NCBI GenBank assembly: GCA_964035015.1
Contig: OZ035998.1
Location: 39,519,559 to 39,583,558 of the forward strand
DNA from: Corallium rubrum
Lineage: Eukaryota > Cnidaria > Anthozoa > Scleralcyonacea > Coralliidae
Reading direction: 5' to 3'
DNA: 64,000 bases
The translations under genes and the position numbers were made by a program. The first letter of the stretch is position 1, and each line of letters begins with the position of its first letter. Below, piece after piece: positions 5,697 to 46,600 of the stretch. The notes under the pieces were generated by a model. That model saw nothing but the letters and a program-made list of their open reading frames with translations. It was not told the origin of the DNA and ran no database searches.

Positions 5697-27127
<21,431 letters not shown>

Positions 27128-27401
27128 AACAAAAAGAGAAGTGAAGACTCAGAAGTCAGAACTTGTCGACAATTTTCGTACTCTCAATCTCGAGACTCGA
27201 GCCCAGTCTTGCTGCTTTTTGTCAGCGGCTCAGCGCGGGCTATACATCTTTCCCTCTTTCCCCCTCCCTTCCCCCATCTTTCCCCCTTTTTTCTCTCCCT
27301 TCCTCTTTTCTTTCCCTCGCGGGCAACAGGTGGGAAAATTGTCTTAACTGACCAAAAATCGCGGGCGCATTTGCTCTGTTTCTTTATTTTTGTTCGAAAT
27401 G

Positions 27402-27863
27402 TAGCCTGTGCACAGCCTGAAATATCCCTGTATTACAGGTGCGAGATAAAGTTTGTCGGAGAAATCAATCTAAAATTTAACAGAAAGTAAATAAATTAAA
27501 GTACAGTTAAAAAAAGTTTTAAAAAATCTCTAAGTAGTAATGATTTTATAAGAGGTACTAATATGGTAATAAAGGAATAAAACTAGTGTTCAAAAACTCA
27601 TTAATAATTCATGAGGAAAACACAAAAGAAAATCATGACCATATCGTGTCTTTATATGTGATAAAGACACCTCCTGATTTACATAAACTTTAGCTTTGAT
27701 TTTCTCGGCTTAGACAAGGTTATTTTTCAAACTTACTACGCCAATGAACTTACCAAGTGGTTTGTTTTTGAAGTCATTCAATAAACTCGCAGTTCGTGTT
27801 TTATCAGATACAGTACCTTCAGCACCTTGTAATACAGGGATATTTCAGGCTGTGCACAGGCTA
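27402..27863. mobile_element. Pack-MULE-like element carrying a DUS3L fragment
   Basis: This 462-bp element begins TAGCCTGTGCACAGCCTG and ends with the inverted copy. The arms are about 41 bp with one indel. The 9-bp direct repeat TTCGAAATG (27393-27401 and 27864-27872) is the target duplication; 9-bp duplications are typical of the Mutator superfamily. All but about 90 bp of its interior is the 374-bp segment 27437-27810, the same as 23821-24194 of the DUS3L gene. No transposase is encoded. It lies 275 bp upstream of the DUS3L start codon, so it may affect the promoter or 5' UTR. Confidence 0.9.
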
Positions 27864-28028
27864 TTCGAAATGAGGTTCGTTCAGGTTTGAATGTTTTGTT
27901 AGCTGAAATATTTGGTACGCTGAAGAAGAGAAACCTTGACAATTTAAAACTGGTTTTGGTGACTTTCATGTGAGCTATATTTTCCTATGATCGGAGTTAT
28001 GGAAACCTTGGATTATTCGAGGAGAATA

Positions 28029-29500: not shown

Positions 29501-29775
29501 CAGCTTGTTTATATCACGGTTTTCGCGCATGCTCAGACAATTTTCCCACCTGTTCTCGCGGGCTATAATCGTTAATTTTAAAAAACTTATTCCCAACCCC
29601 CACACACCAACCCTAACCCGTCCTGTAAACAAAATGGTGACCGATCCCATTATGCACAGCGAGACTAGAGAGGGCCTGCAAAATCTTTCCGGCTTGGTTC
29701 TAAACTTTCTTACAGATCATGACAATGAAGAAACCAATTTAATTTTTTGCGGTCCGGTATCCATCTGATTGGCCC

Positions 29776-46565: not shown

Positions 46566-46600
46566 CTAGGCCCTAGCCTGTGTACAGCCGCTTGCTCTCC
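46566..46600. repeat. Solo MULE-like end
   Basis: TAGCCTGTGTACAGCC matches the TIR start of the elements at 12762 and 27402; no partner end was found nearby. Confidence 0.45.

Follow-up and report, generated by a model that had tools for sequence, protein, structure and literature searches.

The DUS3L locus and its upstream element

The window analysed here, meaning the whole 64,000-nucleotide stretch of Corallium rubrum DNA, contains a minus-strand gene with a small inverted-repeat element just upstream of its start. The gene is assigned to DUS3L because it encodes a CCCH zinc finger of the PF25585 type and resembles tRNA-dihydrouridine(47) synthases. Specifically, the approximate exon 2 stretch with the CCCH zinc fingers (24312-24932, minus strand, from the open reading frame and Pfam) matches PF25585, zf-CCCH_DUS3L, at 5.1e-18, and the short peptide from exons 3 and 4 matches PF01207, Dus, at 0.03, which is below the curated cut-off. 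A partial protein joined by hand shares 92% identity with an unnamed protein, and its nearest named tRNA-dihydrouridine(47) synthases are those of Paramuricea clavata (65%), Dendronephthya gigantea (59%) and Xenia (53%); Paramuricea is an octocoral, and we take Dendronephthya gigantea and Xenia to be octocorals as well. These similarities make an octocoral host probable. Exon 3 (23812-23853, minus strand, 42 nt) was read by eye, with support from family similarity, and is bordered by a splice acceptor and a GTAAGT donor. The likely first coding exon includes the open reading frame part at 26981-27127 (minus strand, from the ORF list), and the likely ATG ends at 27127 within the frame 26981-27148. 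This leaves a gap of 275 bp to the element, the distance given in the first-pass annotation, which was made from the sequence alone.

The element itself is non-coding and spans 27402-27863 (462 bp, as first described). Its inverted ends, found by TIR search and self-alignment, lie at 27402-27437 (plus strand) and 27828-27863 (minus strand), are 36 bp each and are 100% complementary. They had been put at about 41 bp; the inverted ends are real, but the additional letters are a GGTGC that follows the 36 bp on both arms with a one-base offset. The sequence on either side reads as a perfect 9-bp target-site duplication, TTCGAAATG, at 27393-27401 and 27864-27872, again in line with the initial description. 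Between the ends lie a 374-bp copy of DUS3L sequence (27437-27810, annotated on the plus strand, in the gene's orientation), which overlaps the left inverted end by a single base, its first A (27437), and a 17-bp filler (27811-27827, minus strand). A 20-bp perfect inverted match (27325-27344 and 29535-29554) flanks the element.

Origin of the 374-bp copy

Alignment of 27437-27810 with 23821-24194 (minus strand) gives 374 identical bases out of 374 without a gap, which bears out the reported identity. Exon 3 occupies 23812-23853, and the copy therefore takes 33 nt from the exon and 341 nt from intron 2, the same division as originally proposed. A 152-bp part of the copy was found exactly twice in the 474-Mb assembly, once in the gene and once in the element (both of the 2 candidates were scored). 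The other 222 bp (27589-27810, plus strand, from the genome search) belong to a dispersed repeat that was already present in intron 2 and has at least 39 further places at 93-98% identity, a lower bound that comes from scoring 40 of 2,176 candidates. At all three positions where the gene's copy of this repeat differs from all six other aligned copies, the element carries the gene's base. The unique 152 bp and the gene's private variants in the repeat part thus indicate that the whole 374 bp derive from DUS3L, and not from a common repeat that shares its ends. Because the copy is cut off inside exon 3 and inside the repeat, copying ran from gene to element; on sequence grounds, DUS3L is the source and the element the recipient, as had been argued from the start. 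The repeat in intron 2 extends over 23973-24256 (about 284 bp) and folds into a strong hairpin, and a more diverged copy of it (80%) lies at 19236-19416.

Source and copy are 3,616 bp apart in the same orientation, and the computed odds of a random landing within that distance are about 1.5e-5. Their divergence is zero in 374 bp, or at most about 0.8% at 95%, which suggests that the copying event was recent, unless gene conversion has kept the two copies alike. Perfect identity at such close quarters would also suit an assembly artefact, in which an adjacent segment was misjoined into an ordinary element. However, a misjoin would not be expected to bring with it a unique filler, a perfect target duplication or non-random junctions, and we regard this explanation as very improbable.

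The transposon family and its coding relative

The inverted end of the element has 117 matches genome-wide at up to 3 mismatches, against 0 for a reversed control, so that the TIR is common to many other elements. Both ends and a duplication were found at 42 loci, the DUS3L-filled one included, and these are the members counted here. Their duplications are perfect in 38 cases, with a length of 8 bp in 20, 9 bp in 18 and 10 bp in none, and the remaining 4 have a 9-bp duplication with one mismatch. Outside the 42 stand loci with one end, such as L050, L051, L054, L055, L057, L068, L070, L072 and L076-L078, as well as a diverged member in the window (12763-13082). Family members vary in length between 43 bp and 9.9 kb, and include palindromes of 63 bp as well as foldbacks of about 3 kb whose arms measure 1.1 kb. 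The smallest, of 43 and 52 bp (L019, at 1501-1543, and L074, L079 and L080), consist of little beyond two ends and have perfect 8- or 9-bp duplications, and near-perfect palindromic members of 63 bp are numerous. At L067 (C28:3915580-3915980), a 66-bp palindromic member occurs twice with the same flanks, 245 bp apart, which is a local duplication that includes the element. The diverged element at 12763-13082 has related TIRs with 58-nt inverted arms (88%) and, as read by eye, a 9-bp duplication, CAATGATTT, at 12754-12762 and 13083-13091. A single match to the family's terminal 18 bp lies at 46574-46591; it has 3 mismatches, and its surroundings yielded no partner.

One coding relative, L082 (9,527 bp), was read, and it has the same TIR ends as the DUS3L-filled element. 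On one strand it carries DUF6589 frames (2e-23, with a second piece at 3.7e-4, below the cut-off), and on the other DEAD (3.6e-17) and Helicase_C (1.1e-16) domains, the closest solved structures to the helicase frames being BLM and other RecQ helicases. For two more frames, 232 and 335 aa long, Pfam gave no family match. DUF6589 has at least 107 matches in this genome and none in 14 control genomes. A search of the PDB with Foldseek, using the predicted structure of a DUF6589 relative (mean pLDDT 65), gave no match at E 0.001 or better, and no papers on DUF6589 were found in the literature searched.

These domains point to an AcademH-like DNA transposon family with DUF6589 and a RecQ-like helicase, of which the element upstream of DUS3L would be a non-autonomous member; DUF6589 may in turn be the Academ transposase, for which we consider it a candidate. 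AcademH is reportedly a lineage of Academ DNA transposons, described by Kojima in 2020. The first-pass annotation had instead called the element Pack-MULE-like, with Mutator-like TIRs. Mutator target duplications are about 9 bp (8-11), and the 8- or 9-bp duplications seen here lie within that range but are not specific to Mutator. That assignment was given up, as the coding relative with the same TIRs has DUF6589 and a RecQ-like helicase and not a MULE-type transposase; in the L082 frames scanned against Pfam, DUF6589, DEAD and Helicase_C were the only domains and no Mutator domain was found. A filled element of some other superfamily, Mutator or another, that was cross-mobilised or misfiled would still be compatible with the duplication lengths, which suit some other superfamilies too, but the content of L082 makes this hardly probable. 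A feature of AcademH, a superfamily II helicase within the same TIRs, is present in L082. AcademH elements likewise are helicase-encoding TIR transposons with duplications near 9 bp (PMC10045372, PMC10799480, in their available portions). The available text of PMC10045372 quotes duplications of 9 or 10 bp, so that the 8 or 9 bp found here are close to, but not equal to, that figure. Moreover, the member upstream of DUS3L is non-coding and gene-filled, and the family is likened to AcademH by its domains and by duplications near 9 bp.

Search for further host-gene captures

A search for the same TIRs around other interiors did turn up variation, in the form of deletion derivatives, palindromes and nested insertions, but none of the other members read proved to hold a host-gene capture. 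The end patterns used catch ends with a nearly exact inner half rather than more diverged subfamilies. Inverted ends with an inner sequence other than the two usual ones were found at 12 places (6 + 0 + 3 + 3), two of which are the DUS3L element's own ends. Nine others were read, and none of them combines both ends with captured host-gene sequence; one further place, C8:48280322, lies outside these nine. The nine include the 43-bp member L019, an internal deletion (L063), a one-base variant on C278 (L083) and short members of 71 bp (L065) and 52 bp (L079). L068 and L070 represent one solo end within a repeated stretch, of which about 1.2 kb inward was read. L036 / L050 (C30:4888104) joins an inverted end to a LINE-like reverse transcriptase frame, and the inverted end of L037 stands beside DNA without assignment; no partner end lies within 9 kb of L036 or L037. 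The four solo ends (L068, L070, L036 and L037) and C8:48280322 are the places that could still conceal a capture.

The interiors of the 42 members were compared with family references, L082 serving as a reference and standing outside the comparison. The family references cover all ten shorter or 3-kb members tested in full, and 22 members are 43-86 bp long, hardly more than their ends. Eight longer members contain 11 extra stretches of at least 100 bp, and 8 of these 11 have inverted ends of at least 19 bp, as nested insertions do. The extra stretch of L048 is a repeat also present in L055 and L081, and two stretches of L081 are without assignment. In the DUS3L-filled element, family sequence is confined to the terminal 37 bp on one side and 36 bp on the other. 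Around the 374-bp copy inside it, neither inverted ends nor a duplication of its own were found, in which it differs from most extra stretches in other members. Among the 42 members read, host-gene sequence was thus found in the DUS3L-filled element only, as a single copy.

Junctions and mechanism

At the left join, the TTACA of the inverted end passes into GGTGCGAG of exon 3, and at the right join, read inward, TTACA is followed by AGGTGC and then TGAAGGTACTG. GGTGC therefore stands beyond the inverted end on both arms, as it does in exon 3. The longer word AAGGTGC (23820-23826, plus strand) adjoins the inverted end on each arm, in full at the right inverted end and from GGTGC on at the left; counting exon and filler, it occurs twice per strand in the 64 kb. 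The filler and the adjoining innermost base of the right inverted end (27828) make up 18 nt, which read inward as two 9-mers, AAGGTGCTG AAGGTACTG, alike at 8 of 9 positions. Such likeness arose in 8 of 100,000 shuffles at that shift and in 46 of 100,000 for any shift of 5-10. At its other limit, the copy breaks off within the strong hairpin of the intron repeat (24180-24240, plus strand, 19-bp outer stem, z -7.8), after 15 nt of the hairpin's first arm.

The filler has one exact match genome-wide, which is itself, and none at one mismatch. The idea that it is normal subterminal sequence of another family type was dropped on the same count (49/50 matches at two mismatches, reversed control 10). 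A second candidate, origin from the 63-bp palindromic members, was set aside as well: those have arms CCCTGTATTACA and CCCTGTAATACA, in contrast to CCCTGTATTACA on both arms of the DUS3L element, and a member with two full ends is therefore the better parent. These readings of the junctions are post hoc, and the seams suggest that break repair put the gene piece there.

We favour, with a probability of roughly 0.55, a course of events in which a resident AcademH-like derivative inserted first, lost its interior and was patched in place from the neighbouring DUS3L. An ordinary family copy would have landed at the present site, 275 bp ahead of the DUS3L ATG, and produced the 9-bp duplication, after which a later break would have taken the element's interior away and left the inverted ends. 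The inverted arrangement of the repeats would make the two exposed 3′ ends identical, and the AAGGTGC word in exon 3 of nearby DUS3L may have served both as a priming site. One 3′ end would subsequently have copied 374 bp and halted in the hairpin; the other would have copied about 6 nt, slipped, made the second 9-mer and then been joined to the first. As such, the DUS3L fragment would be a repair patch within a transposon. We infer that insertion preceded patching, that the priming word was shared and that the hairpin stopped synthesis, and the enzymes involved are putative. Patching in place has its single case against it, and also the patch length, as 374 bp exceeds what templated end joining usually yields.

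The order proposed at first, capture and then landing, now seems the poorer account, given that the copy is single, its source lies 3.6 kb away and the junctions suit in-place repair. It nevertheless contains the main rival, a Pack-type element that had acquired the DUS3L piece at another site or time and entered the region upstream of DUS3L as a single unit, perhaps by local hopping. Perfect inverted ends and a perfect target duplication do surround the filled element, and many TIR transposons favour nearby targets, such that closeness to the source would also be expected from local hopping after capture elsewhere. Weighed against this are the presence of the interior in one copy only, the low odds of a random landing within 3.6 kb and a search that found no donor trace, and we consider the rival rather unlikely, at perhaps one chance in four. 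A further route is transduplication, in which elements that flank the DUS3L piece form a hybrid that then moves, as in the Pack-CACTA model published for Arabidopsis (PMC13317346, PMC8616336, in the portions available). Here no inverted end lies at 23821 or 24194, the window's four matches to the terminal 18 bp lying elsewhere, and a unique repeated filler at one junction would not be expected; this route appears quite improbable.

Relation to known systems

How TIR transposons take up host-gene fragments is unsettled, and the DUS3L element offers what appears to be a young case with its seams still readable. In abortive gap repair of Ds and P-type elements, a lost interior is refilled from another template and filler is left at the join. 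Patching in place shares the lost and refilled interior and the filler, but its template is a neighbouring gene from which 374 bp were copied. Polymerase theta-mediated end joining likewise leaves templated insertions, short repeated copies of nearby template at the junction, which the filler resembles; the main patch, however, is far longer than usual, and the enzyme at work here is putative. The definition of a Pack-TYPE element, a non-coding TIR element with a target duplication around a host-gene fragment, also describes the DUS3L element. For a further trait of such elements, transposition of the captured sequence, the assembly offers one filled copy.

In the available portions of PMC13317346 and PMC8616336, Pack-MULE and Pack-TYPE elements are likewise non-autonomous TIR elements that enclose host-gene fragments. 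The present element differs in probably belonging to none of Mutator, CACTA and Harbinger, in its animal host, in having its source 3.6 kb away, in its single copy and in its repair-like junctions. A Ds element with a host-derived inverted repeat in Arabidopsis (Langer et al. 2007, PMC1978519, in its available part) also gained adjacent host sequence via faulty excision and repair, but there the host DNA lies beside a TIR, whereas here it lies between two. A plant review of 2026 considers it possible that gene fragments are taken up by a mechanism yet to be discovered, in the available text for unlinked genes (PMC13317346), and a 2024 fungal study, as far as its available text goes, leaves open the capture of neighbouring genes by helicase elements such as AcademH (PMC10799480). 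No description of host-gene capture by an Academ element was found in the titles and abstract openings of the literature searched, a partial coverage. Tentatively, and at somewhat less than even odds, we suggest that a host-gene fragment was here made in place inside an animal AcademH-type transposon, with two identical inverted ends priming at the same short word. If true, abortive repair would lead to Pack-type elements by a route that can be read from the sequence and needs no earlier capture elsewhere.

The copy also has potential implications for the gene itself. Two perfect 374-bp direct repeats 3.6 kb apart now flank the first coding exons (1 and 2) of DUS3L, and recombination between them is predicted to delete the start of the gene. 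Additionally, the copied splice acceptor (27470-27471) now lies 5′ of DUS3L in the sense orientation, where it could conceivably be used in transcripts.
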